From the NCBI GenBank assembly GCA_030523425.1, contig JAUNIP010000005.1, positions 1 through 64,000 of the forward strand: DNA of 64,000 bases, read 5' to 3'. Made by a program: the position numbers and the translations under genes. Below are positions 9,311-59,195 of the stretch, piece by piece; within the stretch, counting starts at the first letter, position 1, and each line of letters opens with the position of its first letter. Under the pieces are notes generated by a model. It did not search any database and was not told where the DNA came from. It worked only from the letters and a program-made list of their open reading frames with translations. This stretch comes from Coriobacteriia bacterium (lineage in GTDB: Bacteria; Actinomycetota; Coriobacteriia; Coriobacteriales; Eggerthellaceae).

Positions 9311-9393
9311 GAAAAGCAATATAGCACCGTTACTCTGGTTGCGCCGAGAAACTTTGAAAGAGCGTGCAGCAAGTGTTGCTTGCAGCGGGCGGG

Positions 9394-9545
9394 CACACGA
9401 GGCGGGATGGAAGCGCTGCGCTGGGGGTATAGGGCAAGGAAGGGCGGGCGGCCTTGGGGCCGGGCCCTGGCCTGCGGTGACGTGGGGTCTTGCGGGTTGC
9501 GGGGCCGCACGCACTAGGCGGGATGGAAGCGCTGCGCTGGGGGTT
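9394..9545 (+). repeat. R1 dispersed intergenic repeat, one long and one short copy
   Basis: The core GGATGGAAGCGCTGCGCTGG occurs twice, at 9404 and 9520. The first copy (9394-9486) continues through GGGCAAGGAAGGGCGGGCGG and a GGCC-rich segment. Relatives lie at 24597-24695, 29692-29728, 58434-58530 and, inverted, 59061-59162. Confidence 0.7.
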
Positions 9546-9590
9546 CGTCTCAAGCGTTCGCCCAATGGGAGCGACCTGCACTCCGAACCA

Positions 9591-9640
9591 GATTCCTCCA
9601 CTCCGGCGCGCCAAAAGGCGCACCTGCGGTTGGAATGACA
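9591..9640. repeat. R2 dispersed imperfect-palindrome repeat
   Basis: Begins GATTCCTCCACTCCGGCGCG and ends TGCGGTTGGAATGACA. Read on the minus strand it starts TGTCATTCC and ends GGAGTGGAGGAATC. This is the layout of a widespread class of bacterial intergenic repeats bounded by GTCATTCC and GGAATC. Further copies are at 9694, 24520, 29615 and 59196. Confidence 0.65.
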
Positions 9641-9693
9641 TAGGGCGCGCCCCGTGTGCCCGCCCAATCCGATCGAACCGCACCCCGGACTAG

Positions 9694-9737
9694 ACCTCTC
9701 CACTCCGGCCCCTACGGGGCCTCCGGTCGAGGTGACA
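9694..9737. repeat. R2 repeat, shorter copy
   Basis: Shares CTCCACTCCGG and TCCGGTCGAGGTGACA with the other R2 copies, but has a compact GGCCCCTACGGGGCC hairpin in the middle. It ends 20 bp before the selD stop, so on the minus strand it is in the selD 3' region and could act in transcript ending. Confidence 0.55.
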
Positions 9738-9756
9738 CGGGCGCACAGAATCACGC

Positions 9757-17290: not shown

Positions 17291-17726
17291 AATATTCCCC
17301 CTAGGTAGTCGGCCACAGCAAAACAAGCGCAGGCATGCAGCCAATGCTTGACCGCCGTGGCACAGTTGTATGCAATGATGGGGCGCGCCGCAGAATGGCC
17401 CTTGCAGAAAAGGCCCACGCGCAAGTCTCGTCTGTCCGGAATCCCTGTTCACGGCCGCCGCGCAGAAAAGCCAGCCGCCAGGAAATTCCGCTGGCAGCAT
17501 AATAACACGCAGCAGCTTTGCAAACACTTGAATATTGGAGGACGGCGTTTCCTTGCTCACTTTCTGACGATTACGCCCAAGAACAGCGAATCGTTCATTT
17601 TGGGCGTAAACCGCCCCGCACTACACGCTTTACCCGCTAAACACTGCCTATCGCACATCCGATGCACCCACCAAGGGGTGGTTGTGAGAAGGTAAGCGCA
17701 GCACAAACCAAACGCAAGGAGCGCCC
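17291..17726. other. Divergent intergenic region yjiM / formate channel
   Basis: 436 bp with no supported gene. It contains one R3-type inverted-repeat module at 17570-17610 and the AGGGGG ribosome site of yjiM at its left edge. No convincing promoter pair was found. Confidence 0.45.
17570..17610. repeat. R3 inverted-repeat module, single copy
   Basis: ATTACGCCCAA (from 17570) and TTTGGGCGTAAA (17599-17610) form arms around a variable centre, giving 41 bp. It is the same module that builds the seven-unit array at 24730-25156, here as a lone copy upstream of the formate channel gene. Confidence 0.7.
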
Positions 17727-18572
17727 ATGACAGAAGAGCAACCGAACATCCCCGACCCCACCTGCTTGTCTGGCACCGCACTAGAGCAGAAGGCGGAAGC
17801 CATTGCCGCAGGCAAGGCCAGCAACGAAACTGCCCGCGTGGTGGCGCTTTCCGTGCTGGCAGGCATGTTCATAGCGTCTGGCGCCCTGCTTATGACCGTG
17901 GTGAAGTCCGACGCGACGCTGTCCTTTGCAGCGGCTTCCGTGCTAGGTGGCGTGTGCTTTGCGCTGGGGCTGATCACAGTCATCGTGGCAGGCGCGGAAC
18001 TGTTCACTGGCAACAACCTGATGGTAATGGCCGCCTTATCAGGCACCATCGGCTGGAAGGCCGTGGCGAAGAACTGGGTGGTGGTGTGGCTGGGCAACCT
18101 GGCGGGGTCGCTGCTGGTGGTGGCGCTGGCGTTCTTTGCCAACACCGGGGCCTTGAACAGCGGCGCGGTGTGGACCACCATGATGAGCGTGGCCGTGAGC
18201 AAAATCAACCTTGACTGGTGGGTCATTCTGCTGCGCGGCATAGGGTGCAACTTCTTGGTATGCTTGGCCGTGTGGATGGGCTTTGCCGGGAAAAGCGTCG
18301 TCGACAAGATATTCACCACCATCTTCCCCGTTATGGCATTCGTGGCGCTAGGCTTTGAGCACTGTGTGGCAAACATGTTTTTCCTGCCCATGGGCTTGGC
18401 CGCAAAGGCCTTCAGCGGCGTTGACGCCAGCGGCATAGCCAACATAGACGTGCTGAACCTGGGCGGCATTGCCTACAACATCTGCTTTGCCACCTTGGGC
18501 AACATCGTGGGCGGCGCGGTGCTGGTGGGGCTGCTGTACTGGATTGCGTATCGCAAGAAGAAAAGCGCGTAG
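17727..18572 (+). CDS. Formate/nitrite transporter (FNT) family channel
   Basis: 281 residues with six membrane segments after a 45-residue cytoplasmic N-terminus. The FNT motifs 'GAELFTGNN' and 'GIGCNFLVCLAVW'-type stretch ('RGIGCNFLVC') are present, as is 'EHCVANMFFLP'. FNT pentamers conduct formate, nitrite or hydrosulfide. With a formate dehydrogenase operon 10 kb away, formate is the likely substrate. The TGA/selA gap of 84 bp allows read-through into selA. Confidence 0.88.
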   Translation: MTEEQPNIPDPTCLSGTALEQKAEAIAAGKASNETARVVALSVLAGMFIASGALLMTVVKSDATLSFAAASVLGGVCFALGLITVIVAGAELFTGNNLMVMAALSGTIGWKAVAKNWVVVWLGNLAGSLLVVALAFFANTGALNSGAVWTTMMSVAVSKINLDWWVILLRGIGCNFLVCLAVWMGFAGKSVVDKIFTTIFPVMAFVALGFEHCVANMFFLPMGLAAKAFSGVDASGIANIDVLNLGGIAYNICFATLGNIVGGAVLVGLLYWIAYRKKKSA

Positions 18573-18656
18573 GAGGATATTTCCACCGCAAGTCGCAGCC
18601 TTTTGGGCCGCGCGGCAGGGTACACTAGCAGCATCATTGCTGAGGGAAGGAACATT

Positions 18657-20141
18657 ATGACCAATTCGGCCGTTCAGGATATTTTGCGCACGCTTCCCCA
18701 GGTGGACGAACTTTTGAACCATCCGCTGGTGCAGCCGCTTGCGCAGCTTGCGCCGCACGACGTAGTGGCGGACACCGTGCGCGCCTGCATAGACGAAACG
18801 CGCCAGGCGGTGCTGGCAGGCGAACAGACCGCTGTCGATGCCAACGAAGTGGCCATGCAGGTGGCCCTGCGCTGCCTGCAGCTGCGCAAGCCTTCCTTGC
18901 GCCGCGTCATCAATGCCAGCGGCGTGATCATCCACACCAACCTGGGCCGCAGCGTGCTGGCCGCCAGCGCCGTGGAAGCCGTGAACCAGGTGATTCGCGG
19001 ATACTCCACGCTGGAATACGACACGCAGGCCATGGCCCGCGGCAGCCGACACACGCACTGCGAGCAGCTTATCTGCGCGCTGACCGGCGCAGAAGCAGCC
19101 ATAGCCGTGAACAACAACGCCGCCGCAGTGATGCTGGTGCTCTCTGAATTCGCAGCGGGCCACGAAGCCATCGTTTCGCGTGGCGAACTGGTGGAAATTG
19201 GCGGGTCATTCCGCATTCCGGACATCATGGCGCTTTCCCACGCGCGCATGGTGGAAGTGGGAACCACCAATAAAACCCATGCGGAAGATTACCAGCGCGC
19301 CCTGACGCCCGAAACGTCCATGCTGTTGAAGGTGCACCCCAGCAACTACCGCATGATAGGCTTCACCGAAAGCGTGAGTATGATCGATTTGCGCCGCATG
19401 GCCGACGAAGAGAACCTGTATCGAGAAGAAATCGACCCGGATGATTTCCCCGTGCTGGTGTACGAAGACCAAGGCTCTGGCGCGTTCGCACGGCTGGACT
19501 GCTTCGGCGACTACGCGGAACCCACGGTGGCCGAAAGCCTGGCGAGCGGAGCCGACCTGGTGTCCTTCAGCGGCGACAAGCTGTTGGGCGGCCCGCAGGC
19601 GGGCATTGTGGTGGGCCGCGCGGAACTGATAGACCGCCTGAAGAAGAACCCGCTGGCCCGCGCCCTGCGCCTGGACAAGATGACGCTGGCAGCCCTGGAA
19701 GCCACCCTGCGCCTGTACCTGGACCGCGAACAGGCCCTGCGCGAAATTCCCACGTTGGCCATGCTTGCCACCCCGGCCGAAGAGCTGCTGCCAAACGCCG
19801 AAGCGCTGAAGGCCGCCATCACGGCCGTAGTGCCCGCCGAAGCAGCCACCGTTGCCGTGGTGCCCGAAATTTCCCGCGCGGGCGGCGGCGCCCTGCCCGC
19901 ATGCGACATACCCACCTACGCCGTGGAAGTGCGCTTCCTGCAAGGCAGCGCGCTTGACGCCGACCGCATGCTTGTTTCCCAGCGCGACGTGCCCGTGGTG
20001 GGCCGCCTGAAGAAGGATGCGCTGCTGTTCGACGTGCGCACCCTGCTGAACGCCGACGAATACAAGGAAGTGGCGCTGGCGCTGGCGGACTACTTCGCCG
20101 GCCTGGCGCCAAAAGCGAAAGAGGGGGCGCAAGCGTTATGA
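18657..20141 (+). CDS. selA: L-seryl-tRNA(Sec) selenium transferase SelA
   Basis: 494 residues from ATG 18657 with GGGAAGGA upstream. The PLP-binding lysine sits in 'SFSGDKLLGGPQAGI'. Other SelA blocks: 'SLRRVINASGVIIHTNLGRS', 'EYDTQAMARGSRHTH' and 'GTTNKTHAEDYQ'. It converts Ser-tRNA(Sec) to Sec-tRNA(Sec) using selenophosphate from SelD. The length is slightly above the E. coli enzyme (463). Its stop overlaps the selB start by four bases (ATGA at 20138), giving coupled translation. Confidence 0.96.
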   Translation: MTNSAVQDILRTLPQVDELLNHPLVQPLAQLAPHDVVADTVRACIDETRQAVLAGEQTAVDANEVAMQVALRCLQLRKPSLRRVINASGVIIHTNLGRSVLAASAVEAVNQVIRGYSTLEYDTQAMARGSRHTHCEQLICALTGAEAAIAVNNNAAAVMLVLSEFAAGHEAIVSRGELVEIGGSFRIPDIMALSHARMVEVGTTNKTHAEDYQRALTPETSMLLKVHPSNYRMIGFTESVSMIDLRRMADEENLYREEIDPDDFPVLVYEDQGSGAFARLDCFGDYAEPTVAESLASGADLVSFSGDKLLGGPQAGIVVGRAELIDRLKKNPLARALRLDKMTLAALEATLRLYLDREQALREIPTLAMLATPAEELLPNAEALKAAITAVVPAEAATVAVVPEISRAGGGALPACDIPTYAVEVRFLQGSALDADRMLVSQRDVPVVGRLKKDALLFDVRTLLNADEYKEVALALADYFAGLAPKAKEGAQAL

Positions 20142-22045
20142 GCACCGAAGCATCGCTGATACTGGGGACCGCGGGACACATCGACCACGGCAAGTCGTCT
20201 CTCATCCAGGCGCTTACCGGCACCGATCCCGACCGGCTGGCCGAAGAAAAGCGCCGCGGCATCACCATTGAACTGGGGTTTGCCCAGCTGGAACTGCCCA
20301 GCGGGCGCAAGCTGGGCGTGGTAGACGTGCCCGGGCATGAAAAGTTCGTGCGCCAGATGGTGGCAGGCGCTACCGGCGTGGACCTTGCGCTGCTAGTAAT
20401 TGCCGCCGACGACGGCATAATGCCCCAGACCGTGGAACACCTGGCGGTACTACAGGTTTTAGGCGTGAAAAGCTGCGTGGTGGCGCTGACCAAAACCGAC
20501 CTGGTAGACGAAGAATGGGTGGGCTTCATCACCACAGAGATTGCCGCCCGCCTGCAGCAAACACCCTTCGCGGGCAGCCTTATAGTGCCGGTTTCCAGCC
20601 GCACCGGAGCTGGCCTTGACCAGCTGCTAGACGCCTTAGACGCCGCTGCCACAACCGCCCAGCGCACCAAAGGCGAAGGAGCCACGCGCCTGCCGGTGGA
20701 CCGCGTGTTCACCATCAAAGGCCACGGCACCGTGATAACCGGCACACTGTGGAGCGGCACGGTGGCCCCCGGAGACACGCTGGAAGTGCTGCCTGCCGGC
20801 CTTACCACCCGCGTGCGTAGCGTGCAGATTCACAACCAAGACTGCGAACGCGCCTTCCCAGGCAACCGCGTGGCGCTAAACCTGAATGGCCTGACCACCG
20901 AAGACGTGCGCCCGGGTGACTTCCTGGCAGCCCCGGGCACGGTCACGGCGTCTGACCGCTTCGACGCACGCCTGAACTACCTGGATCCCTTCGGCCGGGG
21001 CGTGCCCTTTGAAACCGGCAGCCGCGTGCACGTGGCGCATGGCACCAAGGAAGTGTTGGGCCGCGTGCTGCTGACCAACGGCGCGCAAACCCTGCGTGCG
21101 GGCGAAAGTGCCCTGGTGCAGGTGCGCCTGGAAGAGCCGCTGCCCCTAAGCTACCAAGACCGCTTCATCATTCGCAGCTATTCGCCGGTGCGCGTGTTAG
21201 GCGGCGGCACCGTGCTGAATGCGCACCCCCGTCGCCGCACCACGCTTTCGGCCGACGAACTGACGCTGCTTGACGCGCTGGAAAATGCGAACCCCCAAGC
21301 CACGGTTGATGCCTACCTGGCGCTCTTAGCCACGCCGTGTTCGGCAGAAAGCGTTGCCGCGGCCACGGGGCTTACGCCTGTGCAGGTTGCCCCCTGCGTG
21401 CAACAGGCAGTGGCCAGCAAGGTGGTAAGCGCTTTGGGCGAAAGCGGCGTGGTGGTGCGTCGCAGCGTGCTGCAAAAGGCGCTAAGCGCGGCCGAACACG
21501 CGCTGATGGACTTCCATTCCGCCAACCCCGGCGCACTGGGCATGCCCAAGGAAGCCCTGCGAGCGGCCGCATGCCCCGCCTGGGACCAGGCAAGCTTCGA
21601 CGCCGCCTTGGCGCAAGCCCCCAACATTGTGGTGTCCGACGGCATGGCCAGCCACGCCATTGCCGGCGCGGGCGCGAAGTTAGCCGAACAGGAGGCCATC
21701 AAGCAGGTGGGCGCCCTGTATGCCGCTGCGGGCGCCAACCCGCCCACGCTGGCAGACGCCGCTGCGCAAACCGGCCTTTCCGCGGGCCTGGCGAAGAAGG
21801 CCCTTGGCGCCTTGGAGCGCGAAGGGGCCGTGGTCAGGTACGCACCCGATGCCTTCATGAGCGCCGCTACCGTGGCGGCGCACCGCGAAGCCGTTAGCGC
21901 CTTTCTTGCCGCCAATGGCAGCGCCACAGCCGCGCAGCTGAAGGAAGCCATGGGCACCAGCCGCAAGTTCGCCATGCCGCTGCTGGAGTATTTCGACGAA
22001 GAGGGCCTTACGCGGCGCGAAGGAGATGTGCGAGTGTTAGAATAA
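20138..22045 (+). CDS. selB: Selenocysteine-specific elongation factor SelB
   Basis: 635 residues. The GTPase domain has 'GTAGHIDHGKSSL' (G1), 'GITIELGF' (G2), 'DVPGHEKF' (G3) and 'TKTD' (G4). EF-Tu-like beta domains follow, with 'VDRVFTIKGHGTVITGT'. The C-terminal third is made of winged-helix units that bind the SECIS hairpin. SelB brings Sec-tRNA to UGA codons in fdnG and selD. tRNA-Sec follows 56 bp downstream, so the whole insertion apparatus is together. Confidence 0.96.
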   Translation: MSTEASLILGTAGHIDHGKSSLIQALTGTDPDRLAEEKRRGITIELGFAQLELPSGRKLGVVDVPGHEKFVRQMVAGATGVDLALLVIAADDGIMPQTVEHLAVLQVLGVKSCVVALTKTDLVDEEWVGFITTEIAARLQQTPFAGSLIVPVSSRTGAGLDQLLDALDAAATTAQRTKGEGATRLPVDRVFTIKGHGTVITGTLWSGTVAPGDTLEVLPAGLTTRVRSVQIHNQDCERAFPGNRVALNLNGLTTEDVRPGDFLAAPGTVTASDRFDARLNYLDPFGRGVPFETGSRVHVAHGTKEVLGRVLLTNGAQTLRAGESALVQVRLEEPLPLSYQDRFIIRSYSPVRVLGGGTVLNAHPRRRTTLSADELTLLDALENANPQATVDAYLALLATPCSAESVAAATGLTPVQVAPCVQQAVASKVVSALGESGVVVRRSVLQKALSAAEHALMDFHSANPGALGMPKEALRAAACPAWDQASFDAALAQAPNIVVSDGMASHAIAGAGAKLAEQEAIKQVGALYAAAGANPPTLADAAAQTGLSAGLAKKALGALEREGAVVRYAPDAFMSAATVAAHREAVSAFLAANGSATAAQLKEAMGTSRKFAMPLLEYFDEEGLTRREGDVRVLE

Positions 22046-22068
22046 CTGTACCAACAGCTCTTTCGCAC

Positions 22069-22095
22069 GCGGTGCCCTACAATGGAAGGCACCGC
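22069..22095. promoter_or_regulatory. Inverted repeat enclosing a -10 box before tRNA-Sec
   Basis: Perfect eight-base arms GCGGTGCC (22069-22076) and GGCACCGC (22088-22095) flank an 11-base loop that holds TACAAT (22078-22083). TACAAT is a good -10 hexamer placed 18 bp before the tRNA 5' end; no clear -35 is present. It could be an operator over the tRNA promoter, or a hairpin in a selB read-through transcript. Confidence 0.4.
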
Positions 22096-22101
22096 TGACA
22101 G

Positions 22102-22198
22102 GGAGATGGATGGGGCCTGGTGGTCCCCGCGGCCTTCAAAGCCGTTGTGAGGCGCGCAGAACGTCTTGGATGTGTTCGATTCGCATGCATCTCCGCCA
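22102..22198 (+). tRNA. selC: tRNA-Sec, anticodon TCA, CCA encoded
   Basis: 97 bases. The acceptor GGAGATG pairs with CATCTCC, followed by discriminator G and CCA. The anticodon loop CTTCAAA (22134-22140) gives TCA at 22136-22138, and TTCGATT is the T-loop. The long variable arm AGGCG/CGTCT and long D-stem (GGGG/CCCC) are typical of tRNA-Sec. The eighth acceptor pair expected in bacterial tRNA-Sec is G-G here, a mismatch. Confidence 0.95.
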
Positions 22199-24564: not shown

Positions 24565-24596
24565 AGCCCGAAATAAGGCCTGCTCTTATCGGACGA

Positions 24597-24695
24597 GCGC
24601 ATGAGACGAGATGGGGACGCTGCGCCGGGAGCTTAGAGCAAAGAAAAGAAGGGCGGACAGCTTGTGGCCGGGACCCTCGCCTTCGGCGACGCGCG
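24597..24695 (+). repeat. R1 dispersed repeat
   Basis: Shares GACGCTGCGCCGGGAGCTTA, GAGCAAAGAAAAGAAGGGCG and CCTCGCCTTCGGCGACGCG with the copy at 58434-58530. It is followed 34 bp later by the first R3 module, the same order as at 58.5 kb. Confidence 0.7.
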
Positions 24696-24729
24696 GCTTT
24701 GCCAACCGGACGCGGCGCGCAAACGCCCC

Positions 24730-25156
24730 ATTACGCCCAAACTGCGTCCGTCATGCCGGTTTGGGCGTAACGACAAAGGGGACTTGTCCGCGGATTACGC
24801 CCAAACAGGCATCAGGCGCCCACTTTGGGCGTAATGTTTCCCCGCCTTCGTTCCGGAATTACGCCCAAACCGCTGCGCCATGCTCATTTTGGGCGTAATT
24901 TCGAAAGGTGTCTAGCTGCCCATTACGCCCAAACCAGCCTGCAGCAGGCGGTTTGGGCGTAATCTGGAACCCACCCTGCCGAGCCCATTACGCCCATACT
25001 GCGCATCGCACCACCGTTTGGGCGTAATCTTTCGCAGAAGCACTTGAATCATTACGCCCAAATGCCAACTGGGAGGGCTGTTTGGGCGTAATCTTCCCCG
25101 CTTGCCCCCAGCCCATTACGCCCAAACCAGCCTGCAGCAGGCGGTTTGGGCGTAAT
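24730..25156. repeat. R3 array: seven 42-bp inverted-repeat modules at 64-65 bp period
   Basis: Modules start at 24730, 24794, 24858, 24922, 24987, 25051 and 25115, and each is exactly 42 bp. Every module is ATTACGCCCAAA, 18 variable bases, TTTGGGCGTAAT, with at most one or two changes in an arm. Between modules lie unrelated 22-bp spacers (one of 23). Centres 4 and 7 are identical and extend the stem through GCCTGC/GCAGGC with one bulged base; the other centres differ from each other. The 12-bp sites therefore alternate in orientation every 30 and 34 bp. No long direct repeat and no cas gene is present, so it is not a usual CRISPR array. Confidence 0.92.
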
Positions 25157-29580: not shown

Positions 29581-29614
29581 CGCGCGTACGGGGCGGAGCA
29601 GGGACACGCGCCTA

Positions 29615-29658
29615 GTGCCATCTTCACCGGAGCCGCGCAGCGGCGGAGTGGAGAGGTC
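29615..29658. repeat. R2 dispersed repeat
   Basis: GTGCCATCTTCACCGGAGCC to CGGCGGAGTGGAGAGGTC, with a GCCGCGCAGCGGC hairpin at the centre. It lies between the convergent engB and EamA genes, where a bidirectional transcription stop would be useful. Confidence 0.55.
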
Positions 29659-29691
29659 TAGCCCGGGGCGTAGACCGCTCGCATTGGGCAA

Positions 29692-29728
29692 GCGCATGAG
29701 GCGCAATGGGCACGCTGCCCGCAGGCTA
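29692..29728 (+). repeat. R1 repeat, partial copy reaching into the EamA gene end
   Basis: GCGCATGAGGCGCAATGGGC and ACGCTGCCCGCAGGC match the R1 core with several changes. The copy ends at the EamA stop codon (29726), so the last codons of that gene may derive from the repeat. Confidence 0.45.
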
Positions 29729-58299: not shown

Positions 58300-58433
58300 G
58301 CCCCCATTATAAGGGCAAACGCTCAACATAGGCGGCAGGGAGCCATCCGAAAGGGGTATCGCCCAAAGAGGGCAGTCCCGCTTCCAGGCAGGATTCCTCC
58401 ACTCCGAAGCAAAGATAACCCCCTTCCAGCGAA

Positions 58434-58530
58434 CGCACGAGGCGAGCTGGGAGCGCTGCGCTGGGGGTTTAGAGCAAAGAAAAGGAGGGCGGGCAGCTCG
58501 GGGCCTGGATCCTCGCCTTCGGCGACGCGG
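58434..58530 (+). repeat. R1 dispersed repeat
   Basis: GGGAGCGCTGCGCTGGGGGT, then TTTAGAGCAAAGAAAAGGAG and CCTCGCCTTCGGCGACGCGG. It is the closest relative of the 24597 copy and is likewise followed by an R3 module about 40 bp on. Confidence 0.75.
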
Positions 58531-58573
58531 GCGGCGGCGGCAAAAGCGAACCGGATGCAGGGCACGGGGGCCC

Positions 58574-58640
58574 ATTACGCCCAAAATGCCTGCAGCAGGC
58601 TGGTTTGGGCGTAACATGGCGGGCGCGGTTTGGGCGTAAT
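58574..58640. repeat. R3 inverted-repeat module plus an extra half-site
   Basis: A 42-bp module (58574-58615) with arms ATTACGCCCAAA and TTTGGGCGTAAC and centre ATGCCTGCAGCAGGCTGG. This centre, read in reverse complement, resembles centres 4 and 7 of the main array. A lone TTTGGGCGTAAT follows at 58629-58640. Confidence 0.8.
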
Positions 58641-59060: not shown

Positions 59061-59162
59061 CGCCCGCGTCGCCGAAAGGCGAGGGTCCACGCCCCCAGCC
59101 TCCTGCCCTTCCTTTCCTTGCCCTAAACACCCAGCGCAGCGCCCCCATCGCGCCTCGTGCGT
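59061..59162 (-). repeat. R1 dispersed repeat, inverted copy
   Basis: On the minus strand it reads GCACGAGGCGCGATGGGGGC, GCTGCGCTGGGTGTTTAGGG and CCTCGCCTTTCGGCGACGCG. It faces the 58434 copy, so the gap is bounded by R1 elements pointing at each other. Confidence 0.7.
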
Positions 59163-59195
59163 TCGCCCAAAGGGATCGCACCATTCCCTGGAGCA

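Follow-up and report, generated by a model that had tools for sequence, protein, structure and literature searches.

Upstream of a solitary gene encoding a nuclease-like protein in the genome of a Coriobacteriia bacterium we found a tightly ordered array of seven inverted-repeat modules. By computation, such arrays proved to be phased with the DNA helix, to have arms under selection, to occur also as orphan arrays elsewhere in the genome, and to be linked to homologous genes, which are spread over four phyla of gut bacteria (in Lachnospiraceae, Treponema, Fibrobacter and Coriobacteriia). The reading that we favour, with some confidence, is that the array represents cooperative binding sites for the PD-(D/E)XK nuclease-like protein of the downstream gene, which would act in trans as well as on its own gene.

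In the window, that is the whole stretch of 64,000 nucleotides analysed, each module has the form ATTACGCCCAAA-N18-TTTGGGCGTAAT with arms of 12 bp (Table 1). All but two of the 14 arms are perfect, the exceptions being the right arm of module 1, which ends in AAC, and the left arm of module 5, which reads CCCATA. With up to two mismatches allowed, 24 matches to the 12-mer were counted in the window; shuffled sequences had 4.55 on average (sd 2.13) and never reached 24. The initial annotation had described seven modules of exactly 42 bp with 18-bp centres, five spacers of 22 bp and one of 23 bp, and identical centres in modules 4 and 7 only, all of which agrees with the coordinates obtained here. 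Apart from two points corrected below, it described the array itself correctly. It overlooked the linked gene 196 bp downstream of the array, which is the key to the system. The first orphan module of the window lies just upstream of a gene resembling formate/nitrite transporters, which together with a selenocysteine cluster (selA-like, selB-like and tRNA-Sec) occupies positions 17570-22194.

Table 1. Modules of the array, linked gene and orphan modules in the window.
Feature	Position	Strand	Remarks
Whole array, seven modules	24730..25156	.	arms ATTACGCCCAAA-N18-TTTGGGCGTAAT; linkers 22/22/22/23/22/22 bp in order
Module 1	24730..24771	.	one mismatch, right arm
Module 2	24794..24835	.	
Module 3	24858..24899	.	
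Module 4	24922..24963	.	centre same as that of module 7
Module 5	24987..25028	.	one mismatch, left arm; preceded by the 23-bp linker
Module 6	25051..25092	.	
Module 7	25115..25156	.	centre same as that of module 4
Solitary gene, 286 aa	25353..26213	+	PD-(D/E)XK-like domain at the C-terminus, alpha/beta domain (variable) at the N-terminus; proposed module binder
Orphan single module	17570..17610	.	one mismatch per arm, N17 centre
Orphan module with one extra arm	58574..58640	.	inverted copies of another dispersed repeat on both flanks

No Pfam or NCBIfam model fits the window protein and PHROGs likewise returned nothing useful; a Pfam search of 72 family members gave no meaningful match in any of them. 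The C-terminal half matched the C-terminus of PADLOC PDC-S68 proteins (E 1e-24) as well as that of plasmid helicase-like proteins, and in phage, plasmid and viral collections the protein was matched through its C-terminal part only, with the array remaining unmatched. PDC-S68 and other helicase-nuclease proteins thus share a homologous C-terminal domain with this family, but those proteins are about 1200 aa long, whereas here the domain is joined to a small domain at the N-terminus and accompanied by a site array. Invariant among the 72 sequences were R179-S-K-x-E183, D214-F215 and E229, followed by P213 (96%) and K246 (88%), a conserved lysine outside the classical (D/E)xK position. Judged by its sequence, the C-terminal half looks like a PD-(D/E)XK nuclease, with the residue pattern expected of one. 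An AlphaFold2 model of the window protein was confident (pLDDT 92.8) and showed two domains. Foldseek matches of the nuclease domain included Bax1, DrdV, MunI and FAN1, but these were weak (E 0.1-2, all above 0.05). The N-terminal domain was modelled as a helix, three strands and a long helix, for which a fold search against the PDB gave no clear match. No DNA-binding domain was recognised. From the order of strands and helix we also considered an AP2/integrase-like domain at the N-terminus, which the fold search did not support.

A genome scan with a seven-member alignment as query returned 80 loci, chiefly from Lachnospiraceae, Treponema and Fibrobacter. Arrays were scored by repeated 9-mers present on both strands, with a cut-off of at least 3. 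This score was reached upstream of the gene in 49/74 cases and downstream in 7/74, compared to about 2/222 shuffled sequences. As a control within the same loci, an array was found upstream of 44/70 nuclease-like genes and of 10/212 other genes, and among the best-scoring of these 10 are orphan arrays and another member of the family. Around 37% of the homologues had no array at the threshold used. A set of 47 Treponema loci, mostly independent of the first although at least one locus overlaps (L161 = L110), showed arrays upstream in 38/47 and downstream in 11/47 cases, the latter background being lifted by the AT-rich Treponema sequence, and in 1/94 shuffles. In seven loci the nuclease-like gene is preceded, at a distance of about 2.4 kb, by a guaA-like gene, which perhaps marks a shared insertion site or hotspot. 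A search of 60 relatives, most of them the single representative of their genus, found no exact arms of the window array, the arms of relatives being different. Absence of the array from relatives, which had been named as an observation that would refute the initial reading, therefore holds for the exact arms, yet equivalent arrays with other arm sequences are present in relatives.

Distances between arms of the same orientation clustered at about 52, 63, 74, 84, 95 and 105 bp. The best period was 10.45-10.5 bp in the discovery set (R 0.85 for all distances and 0.77 for unique distances per array; R 0.67 with similar arms merged, against a maximum of 0.44 in 5000 uniform nulls) and 10.50 bp in the Treponema set (R 0.76, n=89), statistics in which related arrays are not fully independent. 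This phasing was not built into the selection, since arrays were picked by alternation of orientation and not by distance. Arm spacing inside modules was fixed (median range 0), and linkers within one array differ by 10-11, 20-21, 31 or 42 bp. For the window array, single steps of 30 and 34 bp had been proposed as the phase; this has to be corrected, as the step that is in phase is the whole module period of 64 bp, corresponding to 6.1 helical turns. All 22 orphan-array distances examined deviated by no more than 2 bp from a multiple of 10.5 bp, with 86, 84 and 179 bp in T. bryantii, 114/63, 157, 61/126/62 and 63/115/62 bp in a relative from the window's family (G092), and 74, 64, 63, 74, 84, 74, 64, 65, 64 and 64 bp for the other ten. 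An orphan array on contig C25 of the source genome, with distances of 64/126/63 bp, is likewise in phase with the helical repeat of 10.5 bp.

The modules could instead be RNA or single-stranded DNA hairpins that are processed or recognised as stem-loops, and a 12-bp stem with an 18-nt loop is possible for each of them. We consider this very improbable, given that arm complementarity over 73 arrays was 0.851 within modules and 0.849 between modules (p 0.29), that the spacing tracks the helical repeat of B-DNA, and that an Rfam search of the window returned only tRNAs, with no family matching the array. Each arm follows the common consensus independently, which is the behaviour of protein sites and not of stem-loops. 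Rigid modules, linkers of whole turns and the lack of excess complementarity therefore point to sites on double-stranded DNA rather than hairpins, and that the array is a phased set of such sites can be stated with high confidence.

The source genome, a 92-contig assembly whose gene content and nearest named protein relative (L046) suggest a coriobacterium close to Eggerthellaceae, contains further arrays: two of seven modules in opposite orientation on contig C23, one of six modules on C51, the one of four modules on C25, one of seven modules with variant arms on C4 and another on C60. The C23 arrays correspond to the window array module for module and linker for linker, including the lone 23-bp linker between modules 4 and 5, and in the C51 array the 23-bp linker occupies the corresponding position, which indicates that arrays were copied as whole units and that spacers diverged later. 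Spacers and centres thus have the lengths given in the initial annotation but are not unique, the same module series with an equally placed 23-bp spacer being present in two other arrays of the genome. Nor does the array agree with the CRISPR or guide-RNA type: such arrays combine identical repeats with unrelated acquired spacers, and the spacers here are homologous by position between arrays of the source genome.

Between arrays of the source genome, arms differed at 4/168 positions and non-arm sequence at 72/258 (p 2e-13); in comparison with the C51 array the figures were 8/144 for arms and 141/216 for the remainder (p 2e-33). The arms are therefore under selection, even in arrays without an adjoining gene. 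In four other loci with near-identical linkers (L048, L049, L099 and L112) the units plainly arose by tandem duplication. That the array is a decayed tandem duplication without function is nevertheless barely credible and already contradicted by the contrast in divergence, since arms resist divergence while linkers are almost saturated; in addition, linker lengths keep the helical phase across phyla, and the arrays are linked to a gene. The earlier proposal of selection on the 12-bp sites and their phasing gains support from the conserved arms and diverging spacers and from the helical quantisation in two data sets. Together with the lack of hairpin covariation these results support the option of a cooperative protein-binding array and disfavour that of processed RNA hairpins, both of which had been offered initially.

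Further observations concern the surroundings of the arrays. The C23 arrays (locus L011, 3940-4365 and 10235-10660) are near-homologous, lie about 6 kb apart and flank two genes of membrane or cell-surface type; their opposed orientation could allow inversion. A different inverted-repeat family, TGTGTGAACGACGAAATCG...CGATTTCGTCGTTCACACA, immediately adjoins the C51 array (L012, 1920-2300). A dispersed repeat of about 110 bp with a CTCGCCTTCGGCGACG hairpin, distinct from the arrays, occurs in the window at 24591-24703, 58430-58534, 59065-59168, approximately 9368-9745 and 29605-29705. Some 80 or more matches to it occur genome-wide, often at contig ends and in tandem (at 116-125 bp), and it flanks several site arrays.

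The three paralogues in the source genome (C29, C4 and C60) all have an upstream array. Paralogues within one genome mostly have different arms, although those on C29 and C60 share theirs. Arm similarity followed protein identity modestly (Mantel r 0.31, p 0.0005), a correlation that does not assign specificity to the N- or the C-terminal domain. Phyla are interleaved on supported branches of the protein tree, and the sister proteins L030, from the relative G092 of the window's family, and L123, from a spirochaete, have the arm TTTGGGAGAAA in common. G092 also contains four orphan arrays with TTTGGGAGAAA and no adjoining family gene. Orphan arrays that keep the phasing and the arms of gene-linked arrays in their own genome were found in the source genome, in T. 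bryantii and in G092, and one Butyrivibrio genome had none. In the Treponema genome G180 three phased arrays (L197, L198 and L199) with the arm CCTACAAAA have no family gene within about 1 kb, and no paralogue with this arm was found among the copies examined in that genome.

These observations also bear on the possibility that the array is an operator for a different, host-encoded regulator and the nuclease-like gene merely its target. The position upstream of the gene is operator-like, and at some of the loci 5-25 bp separate the end of the last module from the matched coding region. However, the arms differ between most paralogues and are alike where the proteins are alike, even across phyla. 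Because arms track proteins in this way, a separate regulator would have to travel with each paralogue, and no conserved partner gene was found among the neighbours across 80 loci. We therefore regard an operator for another regulator as quite unlikely and the linked protein as the likely binder of the modules.

The arrangement resembles RAYT-REP/BIME systems, in which a solitary nuclease-type gene adjoins cognate repeats of alternating orientation, repeats and enzyme co-vary, and copies occur elsewhere in the genome (PMC2817692). All of these features are shared, including the dispersal of cognate repeats in the source genome, T. bryantii and G092. RAYT enzymes are Y1/HUH transposases, whereas the enzyme here is PD-(D/E)XK-like, with no match to Y1_Tnp (PF01797) in 72/72 family members; its arms are not GTAG stem-loops, show no excess complementarity within modules and are spaced by the helical repeat, and its arrays lie mostly upstream. 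A direct RAYT link was considered and dropped: the three Y1_Tnp (RAYT-like) genes of the source genome (L187, L188 and L189 on C6, C50 and C61) have no arms beside them. The REP-like expansion put forward initially thus agrees with the dispersed orphan copies but not with the linked enzyme, which is no RAYT.

A selfish element of this general kind, whose nuclease multiplies or moves cognate modules and leaves orphan arrays as offspring, would explain why orphan arrays carry the same arms and were copied as whole units, as well as the interleaved phyla and the sporadic, paralogue-rich distribution of the family (23/79 Treponema genomes, with as many as 9 matches in a genome). We nevertheless consider it unlikely. 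Mere spread does not require orphan arms to be near-constant and in helical phase, copy numbers are low, one genome has no orphans, the enzyme has no HUH/Y1 domain, and neither element ends nor target duplications were defined. The second system for comparison is sopC/parS of the F plasmid, with twelve 43-bp repeats of about four helical turns each for ParB/SopB (PMC6238139). Both consist of tandem inverted-repeat units forming a nucleoprotein array for a site-specific binder, here a predicted one. In contrast to ParABS, the system described here is chromosomal, has a PD-(D/E)XK domain, a variable unit length and no Pfam match of the family, and has no ParA-type partner, no ParA/ParM/TubZ-type motor gene recurring as neighbour across the 80 loci. 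By analogy, the array may work like a centromere or operator array while being laid out like RAYT-BIME, but it fails defining features tested for both, as there is no ParA-type partner, no Y1 enzyme and no stem-loop constraint.

For cooperative binding by the linked protein we propose the following mechanism, in which direct binding, dimers, autoregulation and an effect on nuclease activity are what we infer. Each 42-bp inverted repeat would be bound as a rigid unit, probably by a dimer, and placement at whole turns would bring the bound proteins onto one face of the helix, where they could contact each other. Most paralogues would recognise an arm sequence of their own, and orphan arrays elsewhere in the genome would be bound in trans. 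What speaks against this reading is that the search for a DNA-binding domain recognised none, that the nuclease domain has weak fold matches, that around 37% of the homologues had no array at the threshold used, and that arms and proteins correlate modestly. The position of the array upstream of the gene suggests that the assembly autoregulates its expression, to which we give an even chance. The nuclease-like domain suggests that the assembly might control, or be controlled by, DNA cleavage; that the array holds the nuclease in check is possible but rather doubtful.

Searches of the literature, covering open-access PMC articles, turned up no described system of this layout, in agreement with the initial annotation, and form the basis for considering it new. 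We tentatively propose, at slightly less than even confidence, an undescribed multi-phylum system in which a nuclease-family protein assembles on its cognate sites into a helix-phased nucleoprotein array, with satellite arrays and a mostly private DNA code for each paralogue. Such a system might serve chromosome organisation or silencing, or else addiction or defence, with the DNA arrays then restraining the nuclease. An unnamed nuclease-like family that has spread horizontally is thereby connected with an array whose phasing records protein placement on DNA. Nature offers many combinations of protein and arm (as many as nine gene matches in one genome), from which a code of DNA recognition could be derived, and the orphan arrays raise the testable question which role a nuclease-like protein has at several fixed sites of the chromosome.
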